Below are positions 1-37,465 of a DNA stretch of 37,852 nt, piece after piece. The notes below the pieces were generated by a model. The model saw only the letters and a list, made by a program, of their open reading frames with translations, was not told the DNA's origin and made no database searches. The DNA comes from a virus. The stretch covers positions 1 to 37,852 of the IMG/VR virus record IMGVR_UViG_3300006919_000152; one strand, 5' to 3'. A program made the translations under genes and the position numbers. Within the stretch, counting starts at the first letter, position 1. The number at the start of each line of letters is the position of its first letter.

Positions 1-1772
1 CTTCCTGCACCAGTAATACAATTAGCACTATATAAACAAGATAAAGAATCGTTAGTGTTAGCAACTGGTTCGTAGTTATACGCGTTTGGATCCATGCAAC
101 CCATAACCATTTCGATACACGAACCGTTATCCGTGTTAGCAAGTGAATCAAAGTTAAGAGCGTCACTATCCATACACCCATAAATATAAGCGATACAACT
201 AAAATCCTCCGTGTTCGCGATTGGGTTATAGTTAAGCATAGAAGGGTCCGTGCAACCATATATAAAAGGTATACAAGTATTATTGTCACTGTTTGCTAAT
301 GGGTTATAATTTAACATTGTAGAATCAGTACAACCATAAGTAAATGGTATGCAAGTTCCGTCATTTGTATTTGCTAAGCTATCGTAATTAAACATAGTTG
401 GATTTATACAACCATAAATATAAGCAATACAGGTTCCGTCATCAGTATTTGCTAGTGGTGCAAAGTTAAAAGCTAATGTATCTGTGCAACCTAATATAGC
501 TGCTTCACAAGAACCATCGTCTGTATTGGCATTAGGATTATAGTTAACCGCTATATCACTAGTACAACCATATACAACGGGTATGCAGTTTGTAGATGTG
601 TTTGCATTAGGATTGTAGTTGAAAGATCCTGGTATCATACATCCATATATTACATCTATGCAACCACCGTTGTTTATATTAGCTGTATTATCATAATTAA
701 AAGCTGTTGCATCAGTACAACCCCAAACAGCTTGAGTAACACAACTACCATCGTTATAATCAGCGGTAAAACCTTGAGTATAATATTCTAAATAACTAGA
801 GTTAGTACAACCAGGTAAATAGTAACAACTACCGTCATCTGTGTTCGCAGTGTCTACATAGTTAATAGCTAAAGGGTTCATACAGCCAAACACTTTTTCA
901 ATACATAAATCACCACAGAACGTAGGTGTTTTATATTTATACATAGGTTGTATAAAAGGCGGTAACACTTCTATCATTGTTTGTCCTAGTGGGTTTGTTA
1001 GTTTAAAACCACAGTGAGGTGTTGTTAACTGCGCTTGTGCTGTAACATAAAACTTAAACTCTACTAGCTGCGGAGCATTTAAGTTTATAGTAAAATCTTG
1101 AGTATAAGCAGCTGTATCTATATAAAACTGATATACATTTGTATCTTGTTTAACTTCTAAATATGAACCAACCCAACCATCACCAATTAAATCATATAAA
1201 GTTAAAATATAATCACAATTATTTATTAATGCCATTGTGTTAGCATTTGGATCATAGTTATACATAGTTGAATCAATACAACCAAAAACTCTTAAAGTAT
1301 TGCACGAACCGTCATCTGTATCAGCAAGTGGATTAAACTCTACATATGCCATATCCATGCAGCCCATGACGGGAGGACAAGCATCAGATACAAAAACATG
1401 TATTGAATCATTACCAAAAGCAGCATCTGTACCATATATCAAAGTATCGTTACACTGTATTAAATAGTAAGAACCATCTAAACCACCCCACAAAGCACCA
1501 TTTAAACCATCACCATAAGTATCATATATAGTAAAAACTAAAGGGCCTTCTGGCAAACACAACGGTTCCAATACAGAAGCGTAATCTGGTTGAGATCCAT
1601 AGTCATCACTATATGCAAGTACATTGTCACTAGTATCTTTTATAGTCCAATAAGTCTCACCTTGGTATTGATCTAAGTTTATAACTACAGTAGTTGGCAC
1701 ACAGTTAGGCGGCCCAGGTTGAGCGAATACCATAAAAGGCAATAACAATAATAATAATAAAATTCTAATCAT
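1..1772 (-). CDS. Secreted Cys-rich repeat protein (partial, runs off left edge)
   Basis: Open for 590 codons without a stop to the window edge, so the C-terminus is missing. It starts with a clear Sec signal peptide (poly-Leu core, ending FMVFAQ near residue 18). Next come a beta-rich segment with a DTYGDGLNG motif (residues 84-92), two Cys repeats, a second segment with DLIGDG (194-199), and then eleven more Cys repeats. Each repeat opens with GCxD or a variant, has NYxPxANT in the middle and closes with DGSC or a variant. From residue 351 the spacing is 25-26 residues. These motifs are familiar from secreted and surface proteins of Bacteroidota; adhesion or a calcium- or disulfide-stabilised stalk is inference. 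A GGAG sits just upstream of the ATG, unusual in this window, and the start overlaps the upstream stop as ATGA. It could be a tail-tip adhesin or a protein exported by the infected host. Confidence 0.85.
   Translation of the reverse strand, partial: MIRILLLLLLLPFMVFAQPGPPNCVPTTVVINLDQYQGETYWTIKDTSDNVLAYSDDYGSQPDYASVLEPLCLPEGPLVFTIYDTYGDGLNGALWGGLDGSYYLIQCNDTLIYGTDAAFGNDSIHVFVSDACPPVMGCMDMAYVEFNPLADTDDGSCNTLRVFGCIDSTMYNYDPNANTMALINNCDYILTLYDLIGDGWVGSYLEVKQDTNVYQFYIDTAAYTQDFTINLNAPQLVEFKFYVTAQAQLTTPHCGFKLTNPLGQTMIEVLPPFIQPMYKYKTPTFCGDLCIEKVFGCMNPLAINYVDTANTDDGSCYYLPGCTNSSYLEYYTQGFTADYNDGSCVTQAVWGCTDATAFNYDNTANINNGGCIDVIYGCMIPGSFNYNPNANTSTNCIPVVYGCTSDIAVNYNPNANTDDGSCEAAILGCTDTLAFNFAPLANTDDGTCIAYIYGCINPTMFNYDSLANTNDGTCIPFTYGCTDSTMLNYNPLANSDNNTCIPFIYGCTDPSMLNYNPIANTEDFSCIAYIYGCMDSDALNFDSLANTDNGSCIEMVMGCMDPNAYNYEPVANTNDSLSCLYSANCITGAG
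36..722 (-). repeat. Tandem coding repeat, about 78 bp period (9 units)
   Basis: Repeats 5 to 13 of the left-edge protein form a regular array: units begin at residues 351, 377, 402, 428, 454, 480, 506, 532 and 558, so the period is 26 residues (78 bp), with one 25-residue step. The DNA units are clearly diverged while the Cys, Asn-Tyr and Asp-Gly-Ser-Cys positions hold, which points to selection on the protein rather than recent DNA duplication. Four looser repeats lie upstream at residues 137, 164, 296 and 321. Confidence 0.85.
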
Positions 1773-2053
1773 TTTTCTCCACATTTTTTACTTGGATTAC
1801 CAACTTGTCTCCAATCTTGTTTAACCCATGTTTTTAAACTTCCACCACTACTAGTACCAGTTACGTTACTTTTAGAAGAACGTTTGTACTTACCAGCTTT
1901 ACCAGCTTTACGCTTAGCACGTATAACAGCTTGCCTTTCAGCTTTACTCATACTAGCAATTTTAGCTTTAGGCAGACATACCTTAGTGGTACCTCCGCCT
2001 TTAGCTTTTGTTGCTTTTACTTTCTTAAAAGGATTACCTTTTTGAACGTACAT
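1769..2053 (-). CDS. Small basic Cys-containing phage protein with YVQKGNPF tag
   Basis: 94 residues, very Lys/Arg rich. It opens with MYVQKGNPFKK, a tag shared with two neighbouring basic proteins. The middle has KVCLPKAKI followed by a Lys/Arg/Ala helix (SKAERQAVIRAKRKAGKAGKYKR). The C-terminal part has SLKTWVKQDWRQVG and ends KKCGEK. This combination (CLPxAKI, KYKRSSK, then a W-x-x-x-x-W segment and a terminal Cys) resembles the DUF5872-like small basic proteins I know from marine phages and large algal viruses; that family name is from memory. Role unknown: nucleic-acid binding or a virion-packaged protein is inference from charge and context. Its start overlaps the previous stop (TAATG) and its stop overlaps the next start (ATGA). 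Confidence 0.75.
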   Translation of the reverse strand: MYVQKGNPFKKVKATKAKGGGTTKVCLPKAKIASMSKAERQAVIRAKRKAGKAGKYKRSSKSNVTGTSSGGSLKTWVKQDWRQVGNPSKKCGEK

Positions 2054-2364: not shown

Positions 2365-2907
2365 TTAAATTTTATTTTTAATATAGTTATACATTTCGTT
2401 ACCTAGTTTTTCACCCATTTTACTATCTGACTTGTAGTGAGCGCGGGCAACGTTCCTACTATAAGATATGTTTTCACCTGTTTTTGCAAAAGCAGATTTA
2501 GCTTTAGGGTATTTATCACCTAATACTTTAGCTATTAATATACCTTGAACAGAGTGACCAGAAGGATACGAAGGTGTTTTCATAGACTCCATTTCGTAAT
2601 CTTTAATTTTTATATTCATTTTCTTAGCCAATACTTTTGGTCTTGGCCTGTTAAAATGTTTCTTTAACTTTAATATTACAGGTGCAGAAGTTTTTATAAG
2701 CTTTGAAGCAATTTTTTTATCGTAATCTTCTACATTATTATCTTTAGCTGTTTTAGCAAATGCAGCTTCTATATTGTCAAACTTTTTTACAAAATCTTTT
2801 TTTAAAGGTATTTTGGCCAAAGCTTTTAATTCTTGAGACGTATCAAAAGTGTTGTCACCTGGTGGCTTCATCTTTTTAAAACTTGATATGTCAAAATCTT
2901 TAAACAT
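2365..2907 (-). CDS. PAP2-family phosphatase (soluble)
   Basis: 180 residues carrying the whole three-part signature of the PAP2 / haloperoxidase superfamily: K80-x6-R87-P88 (within LKKHFNRP), P115-S-G-H118, and S150-R151-x5-H157-x3-D161. In this family the first Lys/Arg, the two His and the last Arg bind phosphate, and the second His is the nucleophile. Substrates range from phosphatidic acid and undecaprenyl pyrophosphate to soluble phospho-compounds. No membrane helices or signal peptide are seen, unlike the usual lipid phosphatases of the family, so a soluble acid-phosphatase-like or haloperoxidase-like form is more likely. Residues 1-75 are a charged helical region specific to this protein. 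The start overlaps the end of the upstream 92-residue gene by 8 bases. Neighbours are small basic phage proteins. Confidence 0.85.
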   Translation of the reverse strand: MFKDFDISSFKKMKPPGDNTFDTSQELKALAKIPLKKDFVKKFDNIEAAFAKTAKDNNVEDYDKKIASKLIKTSAPVILKLKKHFNRPRPKVLAKKMNIKIKDYEMESMKTPSYPSGHSVQGILIAKVLGDKYPKAKSAFAKTGENISYSRNVARAHYKSDSKMGEKLGNEMYNYIKNKI

Positions 2908-3178
2908 CTTTTTTTAATCTTTTTCTAACTATATTCATAGTTGTTTTCATTTTAGAAGCGTAACTAGGTTTTTTACCTCTATTAAAAACATATTGTTGGT
3001 TTAAGCTACTAATAATTCTATTTAACTTACCTTTACGCGTTTTAATTAGCCAACTAGCTAAACCAGACGGCGATAAGCTTTTAAACTTACCTTTAGCGTC
3101 TGGAGCATCAGAATCGTGCCAAGTAATAGATTTAGAAGTCTTTTTCTTTTTAAAAGGATTATTGCTTTGAGTGTACAT
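2900..3178 (-). CDS. Small basic phage protein with YTQSNNPF tag
   Basis: 92 residues, basic. It begins MYTQSNNPFKKKK, closely matching the tag on the 94-residue protein downstream and the one inside the 134-residue protein upstream. The remainder has a conserved-looking block, LASWLIKTRKGKLNRI followed by NQQYVFNRGKKPSYASKM, which I recall from uncultured marine phages, where it has no assigned function. No enzyme motif. It starts one base after the upstream stop and overlaps the start of the PAP2 gene, so it is translated as part of the same chain. Confidence 0.7.
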   Translation of the reverse strand: MYTQSNNPFKKKKTSKSITWHDSDAPDAKGKFKSLSPSGLASWLIKTRKGKLNRIISSLNQQYVFNRGKKPSYASKMKTTMNIVRKRLKKDV

Positions 3179-3432: not shown

Positions 3433-3837
3433 TTAACAGTTCCATCTACGTCTAGCAGCTTTACCTCTTTCACCGGTCCAACCTTTTGATCTAGCGCAAA
3501 ATGATTTTCTACGATTAGCCGCCTTGCTACCTTTTTTTAATTTAGAAGGATCAGTAGTAACAGCTGTTTGTAATTTACTACCTGGGTTTTTTCTTTTATA
3601 TTCTTTTACACCTTTTTCTGTCATACCACCACCAGCGGCACCACCAGTAGCACTTTTATCTTTTGATACAGGGTTAAAGTTTTTACCTCTACCTATTGTT
3701 CTTTTTGGTTCTGCTGCAAATAATGGTGACCCATCATTTCTACGCCTACCACAACTAGTAACAGCAAAAGGATTACCTTCTTGAACGTATCCTTTAGTTT
3801 TTTCAAACATACTATTTTGTCTCTTACTTCCTGGCAT
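3433..3837 (-). CDS. Basic phage protein, DUF6321-like C-terminus
   Basis: 134 residues, strongly basic. Residues 15-26 hold GYVQEGNPFAVT, the third copy of the YxQxxNPF tag, here not at the extreme N-terminus. The C-terminal part has the pattern GGMTEKGVKEYKRKNPGSKL, then Lys-rich sequence, RRKSFCARSKGW and a final RRRWNC. I recognise this as the small basic protein family called DUF6321 in phages (name from memory), function unknown. An internal Met at residue 10 is an alternative start that would put the tag close to the N-terminus, but the ATG at 3837 sits 2 bases after the upstream stop and is preferred. Confidence 0.75.
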   Translation of the reverse strand: MPGSKRQNSMFEKTKGYVQEGNPFAVTSCGRRRNDGSPLFAAEPKRTIGRGKNFNPVSKDKSATGGAAGGGMTEKGVKEYKRKNPGSKLQTAVTTDPSKLKKGSKAANRRKSFCARSKGWTGERGKAARRRWNC

Positions 3838-3839
3838 AA

Positions 3840-4163
3840 TTAAAAATCACTCATTAATAATTCATCTATTGCTTCCATTACTTCTTCTTTTGTTGCTAGC
3901 ATTTTAAATGATAAATCAGCTTGAAATCTCAACGCTTCTTCACCATCTTTAAATATTATAATAGTAGGTACAACCGCTATTTTATATTTCGTTGCTTCAT
4001 CTACATTTTTAGCTATATCAACAATACCTTTTGTTTTACAGTCTAAATCCATAAACCAAGATACACTATTAGCATCATTCCAACCAGCATTAAAATGCTT
4101 TGCCTCTATTTGTGCAAAAATAGCTTGGCTAAAAAACATTAATATAAATAATAGCTTTTTCAC
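3840..4163 (-). CDS. Exported thioredoxin-fold protein lacking CxxC
   Basis: 107 residues. Residues 1-17 are a Sec signal peptide (KKLLFILMFFSQAIFA, cleavage before Q18). The remainder reads as a thioredoxin fold: beta strand KHFNAGW, then helix, YKIAVVPTIIIFKDGEE with the cis-proline P66, and a last helix. The active-site WCGPC position is W28-N-D-A-N32, so both redox cysteines are gone; the only Cys (C42) lies elsewhere. Redox activity is therefore unlikely; a binding or chaperone role outside the inner membrane is inference. It starts with GTG in a GTGA overlap with the upstream stop. The signal peptide suggests it acts in the host periplasm during infection, not in the capsid. Confidence 0.7.
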   Translation of the reverse strand: MKKLLFILMFFSQAIFAQIEAKHFNAGWNDANSVSWFMDLDCKTKGIVDIAKNVDEATKYKIAVVPTIIIFKDGEEALRFQADLSFKMLATKEEVMEAIDELLMSDF

Positions 4164-4441
4164 CTGTTATAAAGCTTGTCTTCTATTTTCTCTAAAGACT
4201 TTTTAATTTCTTCCACATCTTTTTGTGTAGTCATAATTGTATTACGAATCATTTGATCTTTCATGTCAAACTCCATACGTGTTACATCTGGTGGTAATGG
4301 TTTAGGTAACTCTTTAGCTTCAGCAATATCCGCTTGTAAAGCAAACCACATACCTATTATAGTAGCCATAGCAAATCCTATAGCTATTAAACTTTTTATA
4401 CTTACATTAAACCCTGTATCTTCGTTTAACTCTTTTGCCAT
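4160..4441 (-). CDS. Small one-TM protein with C-terminal coiled coil
   Basis: 93 residues. A short polar N-terminus is followed by one hydrophobic helix (about residues 14-36, SLIAIGFAMATIIGMWFALQ), a Pro-rich hinge (ELPKPLPPDV), and a charged heptad-like helix to the end (EEIKKSLEKIEDKL). This layout fits an inner-membrane-anchored protein with its helical tail in the periplasm, like an i-spanin or a phage accessory membrane protein, but no spanin partner lipoprotein is identifiable and similar small proteins have other roles. It lies between the barrel-like protein and the exported thioredoxin-fold protein, one base after the former. Confidence 0.65.
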   Translation of the reverse strand: MAKELNEDTGFNVSIKSLIAIGFAMATIIGMWFALQADIAEAKELPKPLPPDVTRMEFDMKDQMIRNTIMTTQKDVEEIKKSLEKIEDKLYNR

Positions 4442-4442
4442 G

Positions 4443-5543
4443 TTAAAATATTGTATAATTTAATCCTAATTTAAAATCGTACCACTCTCTGTTCCAATAC
4501 TTATTGTACTTACCTTCTATAAAATATCCTAATTGTTTGTTTACTTTTATACCATAAATCAATCCAGCTGAATAATCATACCACTGCCCATCAACATAAT
4601 TGTGATAACTAAACTCACTACCATCGTTATAATGCCAAGGCATTAAACTACCCCAAGCATGCATCCAAGTTTGTTTAGTGTATTTATAATAATCAAAACC
4701 AACAACAATAGAGTGTTGTATAGTTTTCTTTAATTCTTCTCTTTTTTTCTGCGTATAATCTGATAACACTTGTGGTATAACAACCGCCTCCCAAACTTCA
4801 GCACTAGTAGCAACAACATTGCCATTTGGATCTCTATACTCACTATTAGCAACATCTACGTTGTAACCTTGTTCTAATGCTAAATAAGTATAATGTATAT
4901 TACCGTTATCTAACATCCATTCGTCTAAAGCATTGTAACCATATGGTTCAGCTAAACGATGCGTAAGTCCTATGTTCCAAGATAAGTTTTTACTTTTACG
5001 CTGTCTATATCTTTCAGATGCTTCAAAGTATTTAATATCAGCAAAGCCATCTTCTAAGTATTCTAATTTTAAAGCAAAGAAGTTTATACATAATTCATCT
5101 GGACAACCATCATCAGAGCTAAATCTAATAAAGTGGTGTTGATCCATATAGTCTACACCTTCTTGTCTTTTGTGATTTACTTCAAATAAATATTCAACTC
5201 CTTTTACTTTACCAACAGTGGCCGCATCACTGTAGTTAGATTCCGTTCCATCGTAAAACGTTTGTGCTTTATTTTCATAACCAAACCTTGCTATCTTACG
5301 TAAACCTATGGTAAAATTATAATCATAAGGAGTTGAAATAGTCTGCGTAGACAAGCCGTTATTTACAGAAAAAACATCAACATCAGACAGTGACGTTCCA
5401 CCGTTTACAGCAGCGTAGAAAGTAGAAAACTTTAAAAGTTTTTTAACATCTTCTTTTCCAAATGTTTGCCCGCAGCATTTTTTAGGAGCTAAACAAGCCG
5501 CTAAAGTTGCTATTATTAATAATATTATTAGTCTTTTCACCAT
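4443..5543 (-). CDS. Outer-membrane beta-barrel-like protein
   Basis: 366 residues. The N-terminus is a signal sequence with a lipobox-like LAAC (residues 14-17); a Cys-Cys pair follows a few residues later. The mature part is rich in alternating aromatic/polar stretches (YDYNFTIGLRKI, SWNIGLTHRL, HSIVVGFDYYKY, YDYSAGLIYGIKV, LGYFIEGKYNKYW). It ends in DFKLGLNYTIF, i.e. a last strand with terminal Phe as used by the BAM machinery. This is what an outer-membrane barrel looks like; the exact strand number cannot be told. Lipoprotein or normal Sec cleavage are both possible. As part of a phage structural operon it could block receptors (superinfection exclusion), alter the host surface, or be a lysis-stage protein. 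Confidence 0.6.
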   Translation of the reverse strand: MVKRLIILLIIATLAACLAPKKCCGQTFGKEDVKKLLKFSTFYAAVNGGTSLSDVDVFSVNNGLSTQTISTPYDYNFTIGLRKIARFGYENKAQTFYDGTESNYSDAATVGKVKGVEYLFEVNHKRQEGVDYMDQHHFIRFSSDDGCPDELCINFFALKLEYLEDGFADIKYFEASERYRQRKSKNLSWNIGLTHRLAEPYGYNALDEWMLDNGNIHYTYLALEQGYNVDVANSEYRDPNGNVVATSAEVWEAVVIPQVLSDYTQKKREELKKTIQHSIVVGFDYYKYTKQTWMHAWGSLMPWHYNDGSEFSYHNYVDGQWYDYSAGLIYGIKVNKQLGYFIEGKYNKYWNREWYDFKLGLNYTIF

Positions 5544-5577
5544 TTCTATATAGTCACTTATTTTTTCAATTGTTTAC

Positions 5578-8500
5578 TTAATCGTGGTAGTAACAATATT
5601 TGCTTTTGTTAGATGTTTGCATCTTACATCTTGTGCCGTCTGCTTTTCTTTTTCTGCATTGTACTTTTTTACCACCTTCTAACTTTTCAGTTTCTTCATG
5701 TATAGTACAAAAACCACCTTTAACAGCTTGGTTTTTACATCTTTTACCACTTGAGCTTACAGCTGCACACCTACCATCTTTTTTCTTTTTATTTTCTTCA
5801 ACTATAGATCTTTGTTTTTCTTTTTTTTCTTTTTTCTTTTCTTCTGCTTTTTGTACAGCTTGTTTTTTAGACTCTTGTTTCTTTTCTTCTTTTATCTCAC
5901 TTTTAACAGCTTCAATATCAGGATCTTTAATACCTAAATCCCAAGTATTCCAACCTAAAACTAAAGCTAGTCTTTGCCAAAGCTCGTTATTAGCATCTAA
6001 AGCATTATCTATGTTTAACATTTTATTAGATAATCTACCAAGTGGAATATTTGTAAAACCTTCTACAACATTACCAATACCAGACCAAATTGGATTATCT
6101 AAAGAAAAACCTCTTCTTTTAAATACATCTTTATTAAACTTTTCTGTTTGTATAGATGAATATATTTTACGTAGCTTAGACCCTATTGGTGGAGAAAAAC
6201 TAAGTAAAGATAATATTGTATACGTGTGATCAGCTCTAAAACCTTTATCTCTTTCTTTTAAGTAAGTCATTGCTGTATTTTTAACAGTACTTATAGCCTT
6301 ACCACCATAACCAATACCAGATAAAATAGAATCTAGCGCTCCATTGAGTATTCTTTCTTTCTTTTTATCATACTGTTCTTCGTCATCTTCACCTAACGCG
6401 GCAAACAAAGCCGATTGTAAAGCGCCAAATATTATACTTTGTACAACACCATAGTAAGCAATTTTAGATATATGTGTTTTGTAATCACCTCTACCATTTA
6501 CTAAGTCTCTAGATACTTTATTAATAATTCTAGCATACTGCATTGGTGTGTTTTGAAATGCTAATATTAATCTACCAAGTGGAGAAGCTTGTTGCTGTGA
6601 TATCATATCAGGTCTTGCTGACTGCTGAGCAACTTCTGATGTTTCTTGAAAATCTAAAAACGCTTTCTCTTCTGCTTGTTGTTGTGTTAACCCTTCTTTT
6701 ATATATTTTTTAACTCTGTTTCTATAAAACGTAGCGCCACCTGATGCGATAGCAAAACTATCAGCTATTTGCGTAGGTAAAAACCCTTTTTTAAGTAACC
6801 AAGCTATAGCTGCTTTAGCTTTGTTTTCTGCACCTGCTACAGCAGATGATAATTCAGCTTCGTTAATACCTCTTTGATTACCAGCACGTCTTTGTTTTAG
6901 AAAGTCAGAGTTAAATAAAAACGCAAAATCTTTCCAATACTGTGGTTGATTAGCAAATGCCGCCGCCGCCTTTAAAGGGTTATTATCAGACCAGTTGATA
7001 AAGTTTGTAGCAGATATAGTTTGAAGTAATGCGGATCTCATGTTAAAGAACATGATAGCGCCTACAGAATTGTTAACCCAGTTCATGTAAGTGTTCATTA
7101 ATCTACCGCTACCAGTTGGTCTATTTCTACCAGTTTCCATACGGTATAGTATATCTTGTAAAGCTTCTCTAAACTTACTACCGTATATAGCCTCTATTTT
7201 ATTTAAGTTTTGCGGTGAAAATATTACATCTTTATTTTGTTGCCACTCTGCTAAAAAATCAGCTCTTTTATCACCAATATTACTATCACTTAATAAATCA
7301 GAAGTTATAGTTTCTGCAAGCCAAAAATCACCAGGCGCAGAGTAACCAGCTTCTTCTTTAGATATAATACCAACACCTTCAGCAAAAGCTTTTAAGTCTG
7401 CATTTTCATTAACAACTTTTTTTAAGCTGTCTAAATCTCTTTTTGATAATCCTGGTATATTAAAACCAGCCTTGTCCCAAAGATAAACTCTAACCGCTTG
7501 ATCGTTTGTAAAGTTTAGCTCGCCAGCTTTTTTATTTATTGTTTTCTTTATTTGAGGATATTGCTTTTGTAAATTTTCATAATCATTAGCAGCGCTTTGT
7601 TTAGAAGCGTTTAAATCGTTTATTCCTCTAGCAAAAGGATCAATTAAAGCTTTTTTAAAGAAAGCCATATCAGCTTCACCTTTTTTACTTCTACCTAAAA
7701 AGTTATATAATAAACCAGCAAAATCTTGGGCTGAAGCAGGTATAATACTTTTATACTTTGTTCTTGCTCCTCTAATTTTGGCTTGAGCATCAGAAAACTC
7801 TTTCATAGATTCAACACCAGTTGATCCTTCTAGTATATCGTTAAACTCTCTGCTCATGCCTTTGCTAAATTTAATTTTAGCTTGTTGAACTTTCGACTTA
7901 ACATCAAACTGATCTAACATGTTTTTAACAGCTTGTACATTTTGTAAAGCATCATCAGCAAAATAAAAATCATTATATCCTTCACCAACTTTATCAGCAA
8001 CCCATAACGCTTTAGCTTCGCTAGTACTATTACCTAAGCCAGTTATATTTTTTAAAGGTATGTTTAAACCATTAGCTTTTAAAAAGTCAAATATAGCTTT
8101 TTGAGCTTGTGGTGGCCTTGCTGTTAGCACAAACATATTTTCAGGGCCAAACTTCTTTTGTAACTTTATTGCTTTATTAAATAATGGTGCTAACTTACCT
8201 TTAACAACTTTGTTAAAATCAGAAAAGTCAAACGTATAACCTTGATCTTGTAAGTCTTCATATGTACTAGCAAATTGTTCAGCGTTTAACGTACCAGTTG
8301 TACCATCTGGTGCTGTATATTTAACTAGTGATTTAGTTGTGGCTAATGTATCATCAAAATCTAATATACTAATACCTTTTGAATCTTTTGAGTAATTAGT
8401 TGTTCTAGCACTAAACATAGCCTTGCTAAGGGTTTTGTTGGCTTCTGTTTGTGTTTTTATACCGCTTGGCTTACCATCAATACTTATATTTAGCTCTTGA

Positions 8501-11500
8501 GCTAAACTTTGACCAGAAACAATTGAAGTAAATTTTTCAGGATTAATACCTCCTTGAGCTAGTACTTTTTCATTAAAATATCTTTCCCACCAATTATTAT
8601 CAAATATATTCCAATCTTCTGGCATTGATTGTTTATATCCAGCGGCTGATAGCTTATTGCTATCTTTTTTAGACATAACTATTAACTTGTAATTATTTTG
8701 AAGCGTTTCTAAAGTTTTTGTAAACTCTGCCTTGCTTTGGCTTATAGCAGCGTCCATTAATAATCTATAAGCCTGGTTATTTGGTAAAGCGTGCTCAAAC
8801 TCTAATGTGCCAGTTGCGGTTCTATCAATATGAGTTAGTTCAGAACCAATCCTCTGTGGGTGAGTACCTTCGTTTGTAGAACCTTTAAGCCAATGCAACA
8901 AAGGTGTTACAACCGATTTGTCTTTTTGAACACCATCGTATATAGCTAACCACATAGATTTAAAATTCTTTACATTTCTATCGCTTAATCTTTGTAGCTC
9001 TTTATTTGTGCTGTTGTCTATTAATTTTTTATCAAATTTTGTTCTAGCATAATCTTTGTTTGTTTTAAAAGAAATACCTTTTTGTCCCATGTAACCAGCT
9101 AACATGGACTTTGCATCTTTTACTAACCTATTAGGCATTATAGAAGTAGTAATAGCAACTGTAGTATTTAAAAAACCAGGCATAGAATCAAATATAGGTA
9201 TTACTTTATCAACAAGATCAACAACATAGGTTTCAGCACCAGCTTGGTCTAACGTGTCATAATATAATATACCGGCTTTTTTAGCTATAGCTTCATTTTC
9301 TTTACTAAACATAAAAGTGCTTTTACCATCTTCTAACGCTCTAAATGTTTCGATTTGCACTTGTTGTCTAACAGCTTGGTTGGTTATCATTTTACCTAAA
9401 GTATTAGCTAATGATAAAACTCTAGCAGAAGTGTTTCTATCTGTACGATTAGGCTTGCCATCTACAATACCAAATACTTCTAAAAATTGTTTTTTATTTA
9501 TATTGTTTTTTTGTTGTATAGGTAAACCTGCTTTAGTTCCAGTTTTAGCCATTTTAGCTCTTTCGCCTTTTGTGTAGAACTCATTTAGTAAAGTTTTAGG
9601 AACACCAGTTGCCATACCACCCTCTGTCGATCCTTCAGGCAGCATTTTAATTAATAAATCAGCATTTTTATTAATAAACATTTGTGATTTTTGTAACTCA
9701 CTTTTAGTTATATTAGCGTTAGTTATTAATTTTTTTGGTGCTATACCAAATAATTTACCTACAATACTAGGAACTTTATTTTTTAAATTTTTAAATGTTA
9801 ATTTATCAATATCTAAATCAGGTAATATTTTAGCAACAGTAGCGTCTACTTCTTTAGCAATATTTAATCTATCAGCTAAAACTATTTTCTTTGGCTTTGG
9901 TTTTGCCTTTGTTTCAGTAGTAACTTCTTCCGCGGCTATATCTACTTTTTCTGTAACATCTTCTGTAAACTCTTCGCCTAATACTCTTTTTGATGCTTCA
10001 ATGGCTCTTGATGGTAAAAACTTGTTTATATAAGCAGCTAATGGTACTCCAGACTCTGGTTTATATTCTCTAATTAAATCAAATATACCACGTTGTCCAG
10101 TTTCTATTTCGTCAGTTAATAATTGTCTATCAAAGTTTGGTGCTTCACTACGTCTTTCTACTATTTTACTAGTAATAGGTTTAAACGCGTTTATAATATC
10201 CATAGCACCAGCTACACCTTGATCTTCATATATACGTTGAACATTGTCAGAAGCATCTTTAGACATTTGAACAGTGTCCTCTGGTATAACTTTACCCTCA
10301 ACTAATTTACCTTTAGCACCTTCTTTTGCTACTCGTAGTATAGCTTTATTTATTTTACCGCCTTTAATGCTTTTACTATAATCTTTTACAAAATTATAAA
10401 CATCTCTACCGGTATCAAACGTAATTTCTTTACCTAAATAGTTTTGGCTAAACCTTCTAATTACATCACCAATTTTAGTAAAAAAGTTTTCGTTAAATTT
10501 CAAATTGCCGTTTATAATTTCTTCAGACATTATAGTAACAGTTTCTTCACCAAAGTTAGAGTCTCTTTCAAACATGCCATCTTTGTTAAATTTACCATAA
10601 GCTTTAAGTCTTTCACCTAACACACTTGTTTCTCCACCTAAATCACTAACATGATCAACTAAAGCATCGCCTAAATTATCTTGTAATTTTTGTTGGTTAC
10701 CTAAGGTTTTAAATAATACAGCATGCATAAACTCATGAGCCGCCGTGCCAACCATTGGCTTATCTTTATTAAGTGTTATTGTAAAACTACCATCTGTTCT
10801 TTGGTTTATAAAACCAAATTGTTTAGCAGCTTGTTTAGAATTAAATCCTTCTTCTTTAATATTAGATATTTCTTCAGAAGTCATTTCAACTACTTCACCT
10901 TCTAATCCAGCTTCTTTTATTTGTTCTTTTACTGTCTCTGTAACTTTCTCAGCAGCTTTAGCTTTGGCACTTTCTAATATAGAAATATTTTGCTCTTGTA
11001 ATGTTTTATATTTATCTTGAGCAATATTTTTCTCACTACTTGTCTTAGCTTTTACTAAAACGCTTTTCGCCTTGTTAATTTCTTCAATATTTTTAGAATA
11101 ATTAACTAAGTCTTCTCCTTGTAAATTATTAATTAACGAAGATGATTGTCTTTTAATACCAATAATTTCATTTTCTATTTCATTAATTTTTTCATTAACT
11201 ATTTCTTTACCTTCTTCAGATACGTTAGGTAAATCGTCTATTAAATCATTTAACTCTTGCGCTTTTTTAGATATTTGGTTTTTAGCGTTTTCTGGCATTA
11301 ATATAGCTTCTGCTCTATCTTTTGCTTTGTCGCTTTGTTTTGTAACTTCACCTACAGATGAAACAGCACCACCAACTAATGAACCAACAATAAAACCATC
11401 ACCCATAGAATATAATAATTCTTTTTGATCATATTCTTTGCCTAATATAACATAATCTGCCAACGTTTTAGATACTAACTCTGTAGCAGACTCTGAGGCA

Positions 11501-12300
11501 CCTTCACCAACAATACCAAACCCTATGTTTTTTACTAAATTAGCAGCCCCTCCTTTTATTAACTCTCTAGCTGCCGTAACATTTCCTTGAGAATTTAAAA
11601 ACCCTGCTCTTTTTAAAAGGCCTCTAGTTGCTAATTCAAAAGTTGCTTCTGTAATACCTGAAACTCCTGATGCTGCTAAAATTTTACCTGTTGATTTTTC
11701 TGGGTCTTCTTCAAATTCTTCTTCAAATTTATTACCAGCTACGCTAGTACCTAAAGCTATTAAACCACCGGCTCCAGTAGCAGCAGCAACTAATGATGGC
11801 GCAGATCTTAACGCTGCGTTAACAGCTCTAAAACCAGCTTGCGAATAATTTCCTTGTTCTATATCTTCGGTAATACTTTGTGTTTCGTATTCTGGTATGT
11901 TTTCTTCTAACTTTTCTATTATAGGATCGTAGCTTTCAGAATTACCAAGAACATTTGTCTTTCTAATAGCTTGTAGTGCCGCTGTTTTTTCAGTAGCAGA
12001 CATTTCACCTGGCATGATTAATTCAGTAACTCCCAACTGAATTCCTTCTTTTATATTTTCAAAACCTTTACCAAACTCTACAAAACCAAGACCTAGGTTA
12101 GACATTAACGTAGAAAAAGCACTTGGTTCTTCATCTGTCTCTTGTTGAGAAGTAAGTGTTTGTTCTACTGGTGGAACAACTTCTTCTTGAGCTTGCTCTT
12201 GTGTTGATATAACAGCACCAGGATTACTAGCTAAAAATATTTGTTCGTATGTAGGATCTACGTCTATTAAAGTTCCATCTGTTAGCCTATATCTAATCAT
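5578..12300 (-). CDS. Giant virion polyvalent/ejected protein: zincin, HAD, zinc knuckles
   Basis: 2240 residues. Visible parts in order: an N-terminal segment; a Gly/Ala-rich hydrophobic region (about 150-320) that could insert in membranes; long charged helices (320-470); a zincin motif TAAHEFMHAVL with H522-E-F-M-H526; a Lys/Ala/Glu-rich linker near 780-810; a complete HAD-like domain (D1314-F-D1316-D-T1318, T1393 in VLTARPP, K1430, D1449-D1450); a helical region I recall from other marine phage internal proteins (about 1480-1580); a long helical C-terminal region with LAFQNTPMQYARI resembling large polyvalent-protein associated domains; and two zinc-knuckle-like motifs (C2178, C2188, C2198, H2201; C2215, C2225, C2236, H2239). 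Proteins of this style are packaged and ejected with DNA. No lytic transglycosylase motif was found. Start overlaps the upstream stop (TAATG). Confidence 0.75.
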   Translation of the reverse strand: MIRYRLTDGTLIDVDPTYEQIFLASNPGAVISTQEQAQEEVVPPVEQTLTSQQETDEEPSAFSTLMSNLGLGFVEFGKGFENIKEGIQLGVTELIMPGEMSATEKTAALQAIRKTNVLGNSESYDPIIEKLEENIPEYETQSITEDIEQGNYSQAGFRAVNAALRSAPSLVAAATGAGGLIALGTSVAGNKFEEEFEEDPEKSTGKILAASGVSGITEATFELATRGLLKRAGFLNSQGNVTAARELIKGGAANLVKNIGFGIVGEGASESATELVSKTLADYVILGKEYDQKELLYSMGDGFIVGSLVGGAVSSVGEVTKQSDKAKDRAEAILMPENAKNQISKKAQELNDLIDDLPNVSEEGKEIVNEKINEIENEIIGIKRQSSSLINNLQGEDLVNYSKNIEEINKAKSVLVKAKTSSEKNIAQDKYKTLQEQNISILESAKAKAAEKVTETVKEQIKEAGLEGEVVEMTSEEISNIKEEGFNSKQAAKQFGFINQRTDGSFTITLNKDKPMVGTAAHEFMHAVLFKTLGNQQKLQDNLGDALVDHVSDLGGETSVLGERLKAYGKFNKDGMFERDSNFGEETVTIMSEEIINGNLKFNENFFTKIGDVIRRFSQNYLGKEITFDTGRDVYNFVKDYSKSIKGGKINKAILRVAKEGAKGKLVEGKVIPEDTVQMSKDASDNVQRIYEDQGVAGAMDIINAFKPITSKIVERRSEAPNFDRQLLTDEIETGQRGIFDLIREYKPESGVPLAAYINKFLPSRAIEASKRVLGEEFTEDVTEKVDIAAEEVTTETKAKPKPKKIVLADRLNIAKEVDATVAKILPDLDIDKLTFKNLKNKVPSIVGKLFGIAPKKLITNANITKSELQKSQMFINKNADLLIKMLPEGSTEGGMATGVPKTLLNEFYTKGERAKMAKTGTKAGLPIQQKNNINKKQFLEVFGIVDGKPNRTDRNTSARVLSLANTLGKMITNQAVRQQVQIETFRALEDGKSTFMFSKENEAIAKKAGILYYDTLDQAGAETYVVDLVDKVIPIFDSMPGFLNTTVAITTSIMPNRLVKDAKSMLAGYMGQKGISFKTNKDYARTKFDKKLIDNSTNKELQRLSDRNVKNFKSMWLAIYDGVQKDKSVVTPLLHWLKGSTNEGTHPQRIGSELTHIDRTATGTLEFEHALPNNQAYRLLMDAAISQSKAEFTKTLETLQNNYKLIVMSKKDSNKLSAAGYKQSMPEDWNIFDNNWWERYFNEKVLAQGGINPEKFTSIVSGQSLAQELNISIDGKPSGIKTQTEANKTLSKAMFSARTTNYSKDSKGISILDFDDTLATTKSLVKYTAPDGTTGTLNAEQFASTYEDLQDQGYTFDFSDFNKVVKGKLAPLFNKAIKLQKKFGPENMFVLTARPPQAQKAIFDFLKANGLNIPLKNITGLGNSTSEAKALWVADKVGEGYNDFYFADDALQNVQAVKNMLDQFDVKSKVQQAKIKFSKGMSREFNDILEGSTGVESMKEFSDAQAKIRGARTKYKSIIPASAQDFAGLLYNFLGRSKKGEADMAFFKKALIDPFARGINDLNASKQSAANDYENLQKQYPQIKKTINKKAGELNFTNDQAVRVYLWDKAGFNIPGLSKRDLDSLKKVVNENADLKAFAEGVGIISKEEAGYSAPGDFWLAETITSDLLSDSNIGDKRADFLAEWQQNKDVIFSPQNLNKIEAIYGSKFREALQDILYRMETGRNRPTGSGRLMNTYMNWVNNSVGAIMFFNMRSALLQTISATNFINWSDNNPLKAAAAFANQPQYWKDFAFLFNSDFLKQRRAGNQRGINEAELSSAVAGAENKAKAAIAWLLKKGFLPTQIADSFAIASGGATFYRNRVKKYIKEGLTQQQAEEKAFLDFQETSEVAQQSARPDMISQQQASPLGRLILAFQNTPMQYARIINKVSRDLVNGRGDYKTHISKIAYYGVVQSIIFGALQSALFAALGEDDEEQYDKKKERILNGALDSILSGIGYGGKAISTVKNTAMTYLKERDKGFRADHTYTILSLLSFSPPIGSKLRKIYSSIQTEKFNKDVFKRRGFSLDNPIWSGIGNVVEGFTNIPLGRLSNKMLNIDNALDANNELWQRLALVLGWNTWDLGIKDPDIEAVKSEIKEEKKQESKKQAVQKAEEKKKEKKEKQRSIVEENKKKKDGRCAAVSSSGKRCKNQAVKGGFCTIHEETEKLEGGKKVQCRKRKADGTRCKMQTSNKSKYCYYHD

Positions 12301-31712: not shown

Positions 31713-33926
31713 CTATTTTATTATTTGTGAATTTGTTCCAGTATTAGTATACTTAGAAATATTTATGTTTAATTTAGGTTTTTCAACCTTAACATTTGGC
31801 ATGTATAAATGTCTGTTATTAGCCATTATTGCTAATCCAGAACTTATAGATGCATCGTGCTTTGTTCTTTTGTTTATATCAAACTTACTCCAATCATTTA
31901 ATAATTCGTTAAAATATAGATCTCCAAACGTACCATCTTGCTTCATGCCTACATGGTCTTGTATATACATTTCAATAGCTGCCGCGTGTGCTTGTTTTAT
32001 ATCTTCGCTTGAGTTTGGTATACCACCAACTTCTTTTTCTGCTGTTGATAATTTGTTCCAAGATTTATCGGGCCTGTTCATACTAAATCCTCTATATCCT
32101 CTTCTTCTTAAATAATAAAGAAGTCTTGGTTTGTTGTTCTCTGCAAGTATAGGCATACCATAAAAAACTAATGCCATTAATACGTCTTCAAAGAATATTT
32201 CAGCTGTAGGTGGTCTTGATAAGTACTCTAAAAAAAAGCTATTCGCAGGAGCGTCCTCCATGCTAAACCTGGTTAAGCCGTGTAATGCTCCTTTAGAACC
32301 TTCTCCATCTACAGTTCCTGATATATCATAAGAGTCACAACCAAATGCTCCCATGTGTTCATTACCAGGATATTTTATACCGTTTTTCAATACCACTCTA
32401 TTTTGTAATTGCTGAGGTGGAACCCAGCTAACTTTAAATCTACCTTTTGGATCTGGGTAATAAATCACTTGTGAATCTTTTATTCCATTAATCCATTGGA
32501 AATTACCTGTTGTAACACCGAGTGTTCTAGACATTTCTTCATTATAATCTATTTGCTCATATATTTTAACAAGATTAAATATAGAGTTTTTAGTTTCATC
32601 TCTAAACGCGTGCTCTTCAGTTCTAGGAAACTGCCGGTAAAATTCGTTTAAAGCATCTTGATCACTTTTCAAGCCGTCTACTTCGTTTTGCCAACTATCT
32701 ATTACTCCTATATCTATTAGTTCACCGTCTGGGGCAAGCACATCGCTGTCAGGAGTAGTGAATACTGGAACTCCGTACTCATCAATAAATCCTTCGTAGT
32801 TCCACTCCATTGGGATAAACAAAGAGTATAAACCAGATTTTGTCTGGCCATTTCTATTTCTCTTAGTGACATCTGACGCATTGTATAATTTTTTAAAGTT
32901 ATCGCCTCCTTTGTCCAAGGCATTACTCGTTGAACCCATCATGCACTTACCAATTATTCTACTACCTAATCGTAAACATGTTTTTGTTACTCTCCAGTTG
33001 TTTAAAATATTATCTGGCCTTTCCCATTTACCGCTTTCATCATGAACTAGTAAATTTAGTTTTTCACCATCATAACTATTGTCACCAGTGTTTTTCCAAT
33101 CAATAGTCGTATCTAGTCCTTGTATATCTTCTAGCTTCTCGTTTGATGTAATTTTTTTTCTTGTGAATTTACTTGCTGGAACTCTGTAGGCTAATTCAGA
33201 CTTTGGCCTATCCATACCATCTTGAATAGGTTTAAAGAAAAAAGGATAATTAATACTAATAGGTACAACTTTATCTGTAAACATTTTTTTAGCATCTGCA
33301 CCTGTTTTAGATAATATCCCATATCTACTATCACTTGCAAGAGTGGCTAAATTAACTGTTTCTGCAGATGACATAAACGAAAACCCTGATCTTCTGTTTT
33401 TTAAGTAGCACATACCGTAGCACCTTTTGTCTGCTTTACATGCTTCCCAGAATATATAAAACAATCTATTAGCTTCTCTAAAGTCTGGAGCGCCTACATC
33501 TATTTTACTCCATTGTAAATACATGTAATGAGCACCTGTTACCCAAGTTGGTTTATTGTTGTTCATAAACCAAAAACCCTCATCTCTTCTTTTAAACTCT
33601 TCGTCTATATAATCAAACCACTGTTCTTTTTGCTCTTCAGGGTAGTTTCTCCAGTCAAATATATTTTTTAAACGCTCTATTTCTTTTGGTTGTTCAAACC
33701 GTACCCATTTATTTAACTCATGTACGTGCACTCGCACTGGCTGTTTTGGCAGCGCGATACGCAAATTTTGTATTTCAACCACTTCACCAATTTGCCCAGT
33801 TTTAGAGATAACCACGACATCATGTTCTTTATCATATCCATATTTCCATTTTTTAGATTTGTTAAGCCGACTTATAGTCGTGCGTTTAATAGGTTCTATT
33901 GTTTTAACTAAACTTTGCTCGTACAT
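31713..33926 (-). CDS. terL: Large terminase subunit (ATPase-nuclease)
   Basis: 737 residues, longer than the usual 450-650. The ATPase part has conserved blocks WVTGAHYMYLQWSKIDVG and ACKADKRCYGMCYLKNRRSGFSF; the Walker A position (176-184, KNRRSGFSF) is non-canonical, lacking GKS/T. Walker B is NLLVHDE (D296, E297), and the coupling motif is GSTS (331-334). The nuclease part supplies the acidic triad of an RNase-H fold: D531 in GCDSYD, E580/D581 in IFFEDV and D691 in KHDASISSG. Terminases cut and pump concatemeric DNA into the prohead through the portal, which lies immediately downstream. Start overlaps the upstream stop as TAATG. Confidence 0.85.
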   Translation of the reverse strand: MYEQSLVKTIEPIKRTTISRLNKSKKWKYGYDKEHDVVVISKTGQIGEVVEIQNLRIALPKQPVRVHVHELNKWVRFEQPKEIERLKNIFDWRNYPEEQKEQWFDYIDEEFKRRDEGFWFMNNNKPTWVTGAHYMYLQWSKIDVGAPDFREANRLFYIFWEACKADKRCYGMCYLKNRRSGFSFMSSAETVNLATLASDSRYGILSKTGADAKKMFTDKVVPISINYPFFFKPIQDGMDRPKSELAYRVPASKFTRKKITSNEKLEDIQGLDTTIDWKNTGDNSYDGEKLNLLVHDESGKWERPDNILNNWRVTKTCLRLGSRIIGKCMMGSTSNALDKGGDNFKKLYNASDVTKRNRNGQTKSGLYSLFIPMEWNYEGFIDEYGVPVFTTPDSDVLAPDGELIDIGVIDSWQNEVDGLKSDQDALNEFYRQFPRTEEHAFRDETKNSIFNLVKIYEQIDYNEEMSRTLGVTTGNFQWINGIKDSQVIYYPDPKGRFKVSWVPPQQLQNRVVLKNGIKYPGNEHMGAFGCDSYDISGTVDGEGSKGALHGLTRFSMEDAPANSFFLEYLSRPPTAEIFFEDVLMALVFYGMPILAENNKPRLLYYLRRRGYRGFSMNRPDKSWNKLSTAEKEVGGIPNSSEDIKQAHAAAIEMYIQDHVGMKQDGTFGDLYFNELLNDWSKFDINKRTKHDASISSGLAIMANNRHLYMPNVKVEKPKLNINISKYTNTGTNSQIIK

Positions 33927-36404: not shown

Positions 36405-36791
36405 TTATTTTTTTACTTTTTCTATTGATCGACCGCCAAAGTAAGCACCGATCACTGTTATTAATACTAATTGAAGTAAATCAACCCATGATGATTTAAC
36501 TTCGAAATTTAATGCACCTGCGTCTATAAATATTAATAGCATGGTGCATACTATTAAAAATATTAATACTAGTGGCCTAACATTTTTACTTAACCACGAG
36601 TCTGATTTTAAATCTGCCTCCCATCTTCTAGTAATGTTTTTTTCCATTTCTACTTGATAGCTGGCAATTAATTCTTTTATTTTTCTTTCTGCTTCTAGTT
36701 TTTCTTCAGCTGATGTATGTAAGTTATCTACAACACCACCTATACCTTTAACTAGCTCCGCAGCTCCACCTGATAATAATTTACCTAACAT
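36405..36791 (-). CDS. 3-TM holin family protein
   Basis: 128 residues. A soluble amphipathic N-terminus (KLLSGGAAELVKGIGGVVDNL and a charged helix ELIASYQVEMEKNITRRWEAD) is followed by DSWLSKNVRPLVLIFLIVCTMLLIFIDAG and WVDLLQLVLITVIGAYFGGRSIEKVKK. The DSWLS-NVRP-LV block, a hydrophobic helix, a gap and a second hydrophobic helix ending GAYFGGR match the holin family described for gene transfer agents and phages (3TM holins). Holins collect in the inner membrane and trigger lysis. Adjacent upstream is another small membrane protein, and next to that an HExxH protein, which suggests a lysis group. Confidence 0.8.
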   Translation of the reverse strand: MLGKLLSGGAAELVKGIGGVVDNLHTSAEEKLEAERKIKELIASYQVEMEKNITRRWEADLKSDSWLSKNVRPLVLIFLIVCTMLLIFIDAGALNFEVKSSWVDLLQLVLITVIGAYFGGRSIEKVKK

Positions 36792-36792
36792 A

Positions 36793-37029
36793 TTATTCTT
36801 TATTTTTTACTTTTTCAAATGCACTAATACCAAAGCAACCTAGCGTTACCATTACAAATGAATTGTATATTGTATCATTAATTTCTAATTGTCCTCCACC
36901 TACGTATCCCATATATAGAATACCTGTAGCTAAATCTATAATAGCAAACAATACCATTATACCAAAAGATATAAAGCCAATTATATTTTTTTCGTTTATA
37001 GTATTTTTATCTTTAAATAATTCCCACAT
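36793..37029 (-). CDS. Small two-TM membrane protein, holin-like
   Basis: 78 residues from the ATG at 37029, one base after the upstream stop; the frame is open to 37113, but that would overlap the end of the zincin-like gene. Two hydrophobic helices: NIIGFISFGIMVLFAIIDLATGILYMG (about 17-42) and YNSFVMVTLGCFGISAF (about 54-70), with charged tails EKVKNKE. The second helix and its tail resemble the last part of the neighbouring 3-TM holin (GxFG then EKVKxKE). It may be a second holin, an antiholin-like partner or a sibling of it. Confidence 0.65.
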   Translation of the reverse strand: MWELFKDKNTINEKNIIGFISFGIMVLFAIIDLATGILYMGYVGGGQLEINDTIYNSFVMVTLGCFGISAFEKVKNKE

Positions 37030-37030
37030 A

Positions 37031-37465
37031 TTATACTGATGGTTCTCCGTTGCCGTTATTCGCGTCTGTTTCCCATGGAAAATCATGGCTACCGGCTTCT
37101 TTCCACTCTCCATCTACTAATATAGAATCTACACCGTTGACATCCATTCTAGGAAAAACCTTACCGTTGTAAGTTACATCATCATCGCTATAGGCCAACT
37201 TACCTATTTTCATATCAGTTGCGTGTCTCATTTCGTGATTTATAACCTGTCTATCTTCTTCACTACCAGGTATTATATTTTCATTGACATATATAGTACC
37301 ATCCATATTAGCCTCACCCATAACCCCTTCTTCTAATGGTACTCTAATAACAGGCGTGCCAGGTACAGAGCCTTCTTCTCCAGCTTGATTACCAAAACGC
37401 ATTTTGTTTTTAATAATACCGCCTGAAGCATAGCTACCTTTTTTTGAACCTAGTTTAAATCCCAT
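37031..37465 (-). CDS. HExxH zincin-like protein beside holins
   Basis: 144 residues. The key motif is VINHEMRHATDMKIG with H77-E78-x2-H81 and D84, typical of zincin metallopeptidases. A glutamate 51 residues downstream (W131-E132 in DFPWETDAN) could be the third zinc ligand. The N-terminus is Gly/Lys rich (GFKLGSKKGSYASGG) without a signal peptide, and a strand GTIYVNENI precedes the motif helix. Phages use zincins as morphogenetic proteases or as host-directed peptidases; a lysis role is suggested only by the adjoining holin-like genes. ATG overlaps the upstream stop (TAATG). No typical endolysin fold was seen elsewhere in the window. Confidence 0.6.
   Translation of the reverse strand: MGFKLGSKKGSYASGGIIKNKMRFGNQAGEEGSVPGTPVIRVPLEEGVMGEANMDGTIYVNENIIPGSEEDRQVINHEMRHATDMKIGKLAYSDDDVTYNGKVFPRMDVNGVDSILVDGEWKEAGSHDFPWETDANNGNGEPSV

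Follow-up and report, generated by a model that had tools for sequence, protein, structure and literature searches.

What do three consecutive genes that directly follow the last long gene of a phage structural block, and that all seem to encode envelope proteins, contribute to the phage? The question is raised by the window, that is, the whole stretch of 37,852 bases analyzed here, which is one IMG/VR virus record of the class linear. We tentatively read the trio, at a confidence somewhat short of even, as the core of a late trans-envelope module that helps to breach the outer membrane and so does the work of spanins with a different build. The features on which the argument turns are collected in Table 1.

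Table 1. Genes of the trio and associated features, with positions in the window
Feature	Position	Strand	Basis or remark
C, predicted exported outer-membrane beta-barrel-like protein, 366 aa	4443..5543	(-)	Signal peptide, AlphaFold2 model, structure matches
B, predicted inner-membrane protein, 93 aa	4160..4441	(-)	TM oriented N-in (best window starts at residue 17), then coiled coil
A, predicted exported thioredoxin-fold protein, 107 aa	3840..4163	(-)	GTG start overlapping the stop of B; signal peptide
D (partial, cut by the left window edge), predicted exported repeat protein	1..1784	(-)	GCxD..NYxP.A repeats; fourth module member in relatives
2240-aa gene	5578..12300	(-)	Ends the virion-type block as its last long gene, immediately before C; listed for context
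Holin	36405..36791	(-)	PHROG phrog_3427, E 2.4e-28
H2TM (H), small membrane protein	36793..37113	(-)	One strong and one weaker hydrophobic segment

The terminase of the window (31713-33926) matches the PHROG family phrog_6681 (E 5.4e-171) and is 64% identical to that of podovirus MW202828, 45% to those of the Flavobacterium elemo phages and 38% to that of Cellulophaga phi38:1. The minus-strand late genes run from this terminase to the 2240-aa gene and then directly to C, B and A; this layout, together with the terminase relatives, identifies the window as a podo-type phage, with a host that is presumably, judging by these relatives, a member of Bacteroidota. Late expression of the module is suggested by gene position; a scan of the sequence for promoters and terminators yielded sites no more numerous than in shuffles. 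The position of the 2240-aa gene was compared with that of the structural gp101 of phi38:1, and tblastn detected no relative of this gene among isolates; its product contains an HExxH-like motif (AHEFMHAV) and C-terminal Cys/His finger-like repeats. Three minus-strand genes in the left part of the window (1769-2053, 2900-3178 and 3433-3837) encode small basic proteins that have an N-terminal peptide in common, Y[VT]Q..NPF, which may be a targeting tag, and the product of 3433-3837 contains a DUF6321 domain (Pfam E 1.5e-11). A PAP2-superfamily phosphatase domain (Pfam E 2.4e-7), kept in close relatives such as L235 and L058, is encoded by 2365-2907 (minus strand), which lies between the trio and D.

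The trio consists of three consecutive minus-strand ORFs that occupy exactly 3840-5543, and the coupling that had been read from the sequence alone is there: the 2240-aa gene and C are separated by 34 nt (5544-5577) and C and B by 1 nt; B and A share 4 nt (GTGA). In this analysis, start codons were taken as the first ATG, GTG or TTG, and lipoboxes, TMs and repeats were called with simple patterns.

C has a signal peptide and, in the window, the C-terminal end YDFKLGLNYTIF; F is the last residue in 186 of 239 homologues. The AlphaFold2 model, derived from 62 diverse rows, consists of about 12 long antiparallel strands (mean pLDDT 74.5, pTM 0.67), with pLDDT below 50 in two stretches, 20-27 and 87-112. 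The best PDB match found by Foldseek is NanC (E 8.9e-6, TM 0.33 by query), and on realignment NanC and Tsx both reach Z 11.8, over 172 residues at 4.3 A and 194 residues at 4.6 A, respectively. Many other barrels score close to these two, which makes the fold class plain without singling out a closer family. Accordingly, the earlier description of an outer-membrane-barrel-like protein is borne out by the signal peptide, the C-terminal end, the model and the best solved-structure matches, which are barrels, and we regard C as an exported, predicted outer-membrane barrel. Strands 7 and 8 are separated by a conserved 75-residue insert (residues 199-273), which contains a helix at 248-270 in the model; if the C terminus is periplasmic and the strands are counted back from it, the insert would lie outside the cell by strand parity. 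C of the window has a lipobox-like LAAC, and a lipobox-like signal is present in only 87 of the 239 homologues. Searches with C returned no Pfam family and no PHROG at E<=1 and no NCBIfam at E<=0.1; at the sequence and profile level, this includes the PorP/SprF and PorV barrels of the type IX secretion system (T9SS), for which there was no Pfam or NCBIfam match and no PDB sequence match at E<=1. The barrel matches of C also include OMPLA (Z 10.5). This outer-membrane phospholipase is marked by an H-x-S motif; judged by eye, the conservation lists of C contain no conserved H-x-S, and such an activity was set aside as improbable for C. Two copies of C, 85% and 66% identical to that of the window, are present in L016 (10001-11101 and 15735-16811). 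A second, small exported barrel-like protein (~139 aa) is encoded on the opposite strand in L005 (20456-20875) and L058 (20686-21060, minus in the locus) and would fit a separate outer-membrane function.

B was described from the sequence as a one-TM coiled-coil protein, and all 246 homologues agree, with one hydrophobic segment, no second TM, and C-terminal heptads that persist in only 14 of 246 sequences after shuffling. The charge bias around the TM is more positive on the N-side in 184 of the 246 homologues, tied in 62 and more positive on the C-side in none. B is thus predicted to be an N-in inner-membrane protein that holds its coiled coil in the periplasm; the C-terminal part with the heptads comprises ~57 aa in the window, with a median of ~59 residues among the homologues. 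A single N-terminal TM, the N-in orientation and a periplasmic coiled coil, all as predicted, are the traits of an i-spanin.

The model of A is a thioredoxin fold (pLDDT 86.8), and its best structural match is the thioredoxin 6mos (Z 12.2, 82 residues, 1.6 A rmsd). Thioredoxins have a WCxxC stretch; in A, this position reads WNxxN, with N29-x-x-N32 in place of CXXC in the window and the cis-Pro, P66, kept. Among 244 homologues, NxxN is present in 234, the PT motif in 242 and CxxC in none (there is no C..C after residue 30), which rules out an active thioredoxin. A likely signal-peptidase site, [A/G/S/T/C]Q, follows the hydrophobic N terminus in every one of the 244 sequences. Of the exported thioredoxin-fold protein proposed earlier, export and fold therefore stand, and the redox-active site falls. 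A thioredoxin fold without the redox cysteines is most likely a protein-binding domain.

The secreted repeat protein that had been noticed further left, D, belongs to the same set: it lies within 9 kb of the seed gene on the same strand in all 204 well-flanked loci (defined below) of a sample made up of the best 80 loci per scan. In the window, D starts with MIRILLLLLLLPFMVFAQ. The 164 complete copies in relatives comprise 426-1927 aa (median 824), and 158 of them begin with an N-terminal hydrophobic segment such as that of a Sec signal peptide. The GCxD..NYxP.A repeats (median of 10 per protein) have no matches in 296 shuffled D sequences and none in six stretches (L082, L083, L403, L404, L424 and L425) from four trio-free isolates and lambda. 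One occurrence of the pattern, comprising three repeats, was found in marine virus AG-345-P14 (L243), where the best trio-gene match (E 0.2) is not convincing. In all seven long-contig members examined (L207, L230, L195, L340, L329, L275 and L290), D scores above the NCBIfam cut-off for the type A T9SS sorting domain (TIGR04183), a motif that would direct it to the cell surface. D of three podo-type members closer to the window (L005, L058 and L119) has no curated T9SS sorting domain and ends in similar -LIK tails. Because the window copy is cut before its C terminus and these closer relatives lack the domain, we only infer T9SS export of D here.

The sequence-only reading proposed to look for co-occurrence of the three genes in related phages and would have fallen with a lack of conserved linkage. 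Viral contigs were searched in five scans, each of which contributed its best 80 loci, so that the counts describe a sample of best matches. In the C scans, all 427 candidate stretches were confirmed, as were at least 571 of 600 with the diverse profile; for A, 401 of 434 were confirmed and, with a second profile, at least 531 of 600; for B, at least 595 of 600. The kept loci amount to 267 non-redundant ones, the window's own copies included. A locus counts as well-flanked if the sequence extends at least 4 kb from the seed gene in each direction, and partner genes were counted on the same strand, B and A within 8 kb and D within 9 kb; the C-, B- and A-seeded classes share contigs, and IMG/VR contigs are fragments of unknown completeness. 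Within this sample of the best 80 loci per scan, B, A and D each accompany C in 85/85 well-flanked C-seeded loci; A and D accompany B in 51/51 and C does so in 49/51; B and D accompany A in 68/68 and C in 67/68. Thus, C, B and A are conserved together, and linkage counts and shuffled controls rule out chance or artefact as the source of the trio. In the 221 loci of the sample with full-length C, B and A, the three genes are all on one strand and within 6.3 kb, and their sequence distances correlate (r 0.50-0.66, compared with a permuted maximum of 0.10); shared phage ancestry alone could suffice for much of this signal. Among 188 loci of at least 12 kb, C, B, A and D are all present in 161, and H, a holin or an endolysin in 112, with some of the absences caused by contig ends. 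The claim that the gene set targets the envelope is supported.

Outside the viral contigs, the module is hardly seen. Neither phage isolates nor plasmids yielded B, phage isolates yielded no C, and for A they yielded only thioredoxin matches in Streptomyces phages over 35-38% of the query; neither C nor A nor B was detected in the related isolates elemo, phi38:1, MW202828 and Immutovirus, which implies that flavophages can lyse their hosts without the module. Scanning cellular genome contigs for C brought up only two contigs, L241 and L242, which are phage-like. These contigs are binned in one MAG of the alphaproteobacterium Maricaulis and are probably phage contamination. Known anti-phage defence genes were considered and dismissed: the PADLOC profiles gave no family at E<=0.1 for A, B, C, D of L005 or H2TM.

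The module is carried by two types of phages. To span the sizes, 24 contigs were sampled, 12 large and 12 small: 9 of the large and none of the small ones contain the T4 major capsid family PF07068 (gp23), and 10 of the small ones a strong phrog_6681 podo-type terminase (E 1e-156 or better). The same terminase family matches at 1e-61 to 1e-93 in three more contigs (two large, one small) and weakly in four large ones; one small contig, G024, has neither family. In a tree of C (22 rows), the 9 T4-like rows group together with one intermediate contig inside, and so do the 10 podo rows with another inside, a topology that hints at repeated exchange of the module between phage types.

The neighborhood of the module differs between these types; in the gene orders that follow, E stands for an amidase endolysin, assigned by PHROG lysis families, and H for a small holin-like membrane protein, the window relative of which is H2TM. 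The order H-D-C-B-A-E is found in the gp23-bearing contigs L340, L326, L230 (= L324) and L329, the last with a PHROG holin directly after it, and E-H-D-C-B-A in L207; D-C-B-A-H in L360 and L275, D-C-x-B-A-H in L285 and D-x-C-B-A-H in L290 complete the gp23-bearing set. Hence, H adjoins the module in 9/9 and the amidase endolysin in 5/9 of the gp23-bearing T4-like contigs; among the 188 loci, HDCBAE occurs in 6 and DCBAH in 10. In the podo-type phages, C-B-A-(small genes)-D is the predominant order, followed by fibre-like genes and then an M15 endolysin (phrog_894), which is on the strand of the module in all 61 loci that hold it, at a median of 5.4 kb. The module is thus located with holin and endolysin genes, as two-component spanins are; in the window, the holin and H sit at the opposite end of the record from the trio. 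The relative of H in the isolate Immutovirus, gp192 (51% identity), lies beside an annotated endolysin and holin, and this ties H to lysis in a phage where no trio gene was found.

Other spanin candidates were sought in the same contigs. A lipobox screen of ORFs of 45-260 aa, which recovers lambda Rz1 and Bor and for which C is too large, found no small lipoprotein in the window and no u-spanin candidate in five trio-bearing podo-type contigs, where it returned one plausible small lipoprotein (55 aa, G015) and three spurious-looking ORFs. Upstream of D, L290 (5563-5883) and L272 (6551-6820) encode a coiled-coil lipoprotein with an LSSC signal, a more ordinary, o-spanin-like candidate, and another small gene of L340 weakly matches the PHROG 'Rz-like spanin' (E 3.4e-5). 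In the lysis region of Immutovirus, gp187/gp186 (L403, 16383-17046) are an overlapping TM/coiled-coil gene pair annotated as hypothetical; gp187 is weakly matched in 4 of 12 trio-bearing contigs, and the idea that the module replaces this pair was set aside.

We therefore have to weigh several functions against each other. That the trio encodes minor particle parts, as its place in a structural operon might suggest, with C on the same strand 34 nt after the last long virion-type gene, appears improbable: A and C have signal peptides, the phi38:1-type isolates with annotated structural genes contain no homologue of C, B or A, and a module common to T4-like contigs (gp23 in 9/12 large) and podo-type ones (phrog_6681 in 10/12 small), which have no common tail architecture, is probably structural in neither particle. 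Similarly improbable is a cassette without a joint function, made up of outer-membrane proteins taken from a host or of metabolic passengers (for instance, a nutrient pore). Lone barrel proteins of unclear role do occur in other phages (BFVD matches), but the cellular relatives are confined to two contigs of one MAG that are apparently phage sequence, four non-homologous envelope proteins are linked almost perfectly, and the pseudo-active site of A is conserved.

The weightier choice is between the breach of the outer membrane and the remodeling of the cell surface, possibly for superinfection exclusion, which we rate only slightly below the former. Under the remodeling hypothesis, the T9SS would send D outside, where C would anchor it or mask a receptor, B and A would help C and D across the periplasm, and the outcome would be to block rival phages or to keep progeny off debris. 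It is favored by the constant presence of D, by the type A sorting domain found in long-contig members, by the predicted extracellular position of the insert in C and by the precedent of the T9SS cargo of 'Cryophage', for which its authors considered superinfection effects (PMC7468147). However, the genes around the module are late and lysis genes, not early ones, remodeling has no need for an inner-membrane coiled coil or a dead thioredoxin, and D of the closer podo-type members lacks the curated domain. Remodeling thus explains D better and the lysis neighbors worse, and we rate lysis above it. The gene neighborhood, with H and the endolysin adjoining the module in T4-like contigs, favors the lysis side. 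Against lysis stands D itself, a surface-directed protein without a known lysis role, for which remodeling is the better fit; in addition, fibre-like genes separate the trio from the endolysin in podo-type phages, the C-terminal part of B is short for a lone bridge across the periplasm, the related isolates do without C, A and B, and more ordinary spanin candidates exist in L290, L272 and L340.

If the lysis reading holds, D-C-B-A, often with the small holin-like gene, would be a late trans-envelope module of marine phages with presumed Bacteroidota hosts. B and A would form a periplasmic link from the inner membrane to C, with D outside; after the holin and endolysin have removed the wall, the B-A-C link would let the phage disrupt or fuse the outer membrane, with an integral barrel in the spanin role instead of a lipoprotein. 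In its fullest form, this scheme would make the module a lysis or egress machine that is widespread among marine Bacteroidota phages and passed horizontally between them: C would replace the lipoprotein o-spanin, B and A would form the bridge, and T9SS-exported D would complete the span to the exterior. This form strikes us as doubtful.

Each of the inner membrane, the periplasm, the outer membrane and the surface would receive a protein from the D-C-B-A set. The module offers concrete candidate genes, present in many marine viral contigs, for the breach of the outer membrane in Bacteroidota phages; should it serve surface remodeling instead, phages would have in it a widespread means of exploiting the host T9SS. 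Either way, four protein families without an assigned function gain a shared context, and the thioredoxin-like A gains a structural hint.

Among known systems, the closest are the lambda Rz/Rz1 two-component spanins and the unimolecular spanins, with which the module would share the N-in B with its periplasmic coiled coil, an outer-membrane partner and genes near the holin and endolysin. It differs from them in that the partner, C, is a predicted 12-strand barrel with a lipobox-like signal in a minority of homologues, that two further exported proteins, A and D, take part and that no gene is embedded in another. Being a barrel and not a consistent lipoprotein, C does not belong to the known spanins and departs from the o-spanin pattern of an outer-membrane lipoprotein. 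In the literature, Croceibacter and Bacteroides phages are listed among the spanin-less ones, with an OMP as o-spanin offered as speculation (Kongari et al. 2018, PMC6139136), Bacteroidetes phages are said to use u-spanins exclusively (PMC12596118), and u-spanins are annotated in some flavophages (PMC8776804). No description of the D-C-B-A gene set was recognized in the open-access literature.

The type A sorting domain of D in long contigs resembles that of the phage-encoded T9SS-domain proteins reported in 'Cryophage' (PMC7468147) and in the crAss-BACON phages (PMC6949934); as far as the available portions of these papers go, their cargoes are variable enzymes or BACON proteins, and linked barrel, coiled-coil and thioredoxin genes go unmentioned. 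A resembles thioredoxins in its fold and cis-proline and differs from them by NxxN in place of CXXC, by export and by linkage to barrel and coiled-coil genes. Finally, lambda Lom is a phage-encoded outer-membrane barrel, and the OMP-like proteins of cyanophages and the OMPs of phiAS5 and nt-1 (BFVD matches) are also phage outer-membrane barrels. One close structural match of C among phage proteins in BFVD, A0A516LKJ4 (E 1.1e-23, 21% identity), is listed without a name. Compared with these phage-encoded barrels, C is larger than most, is weakly matched and comes linked with B, A and D.
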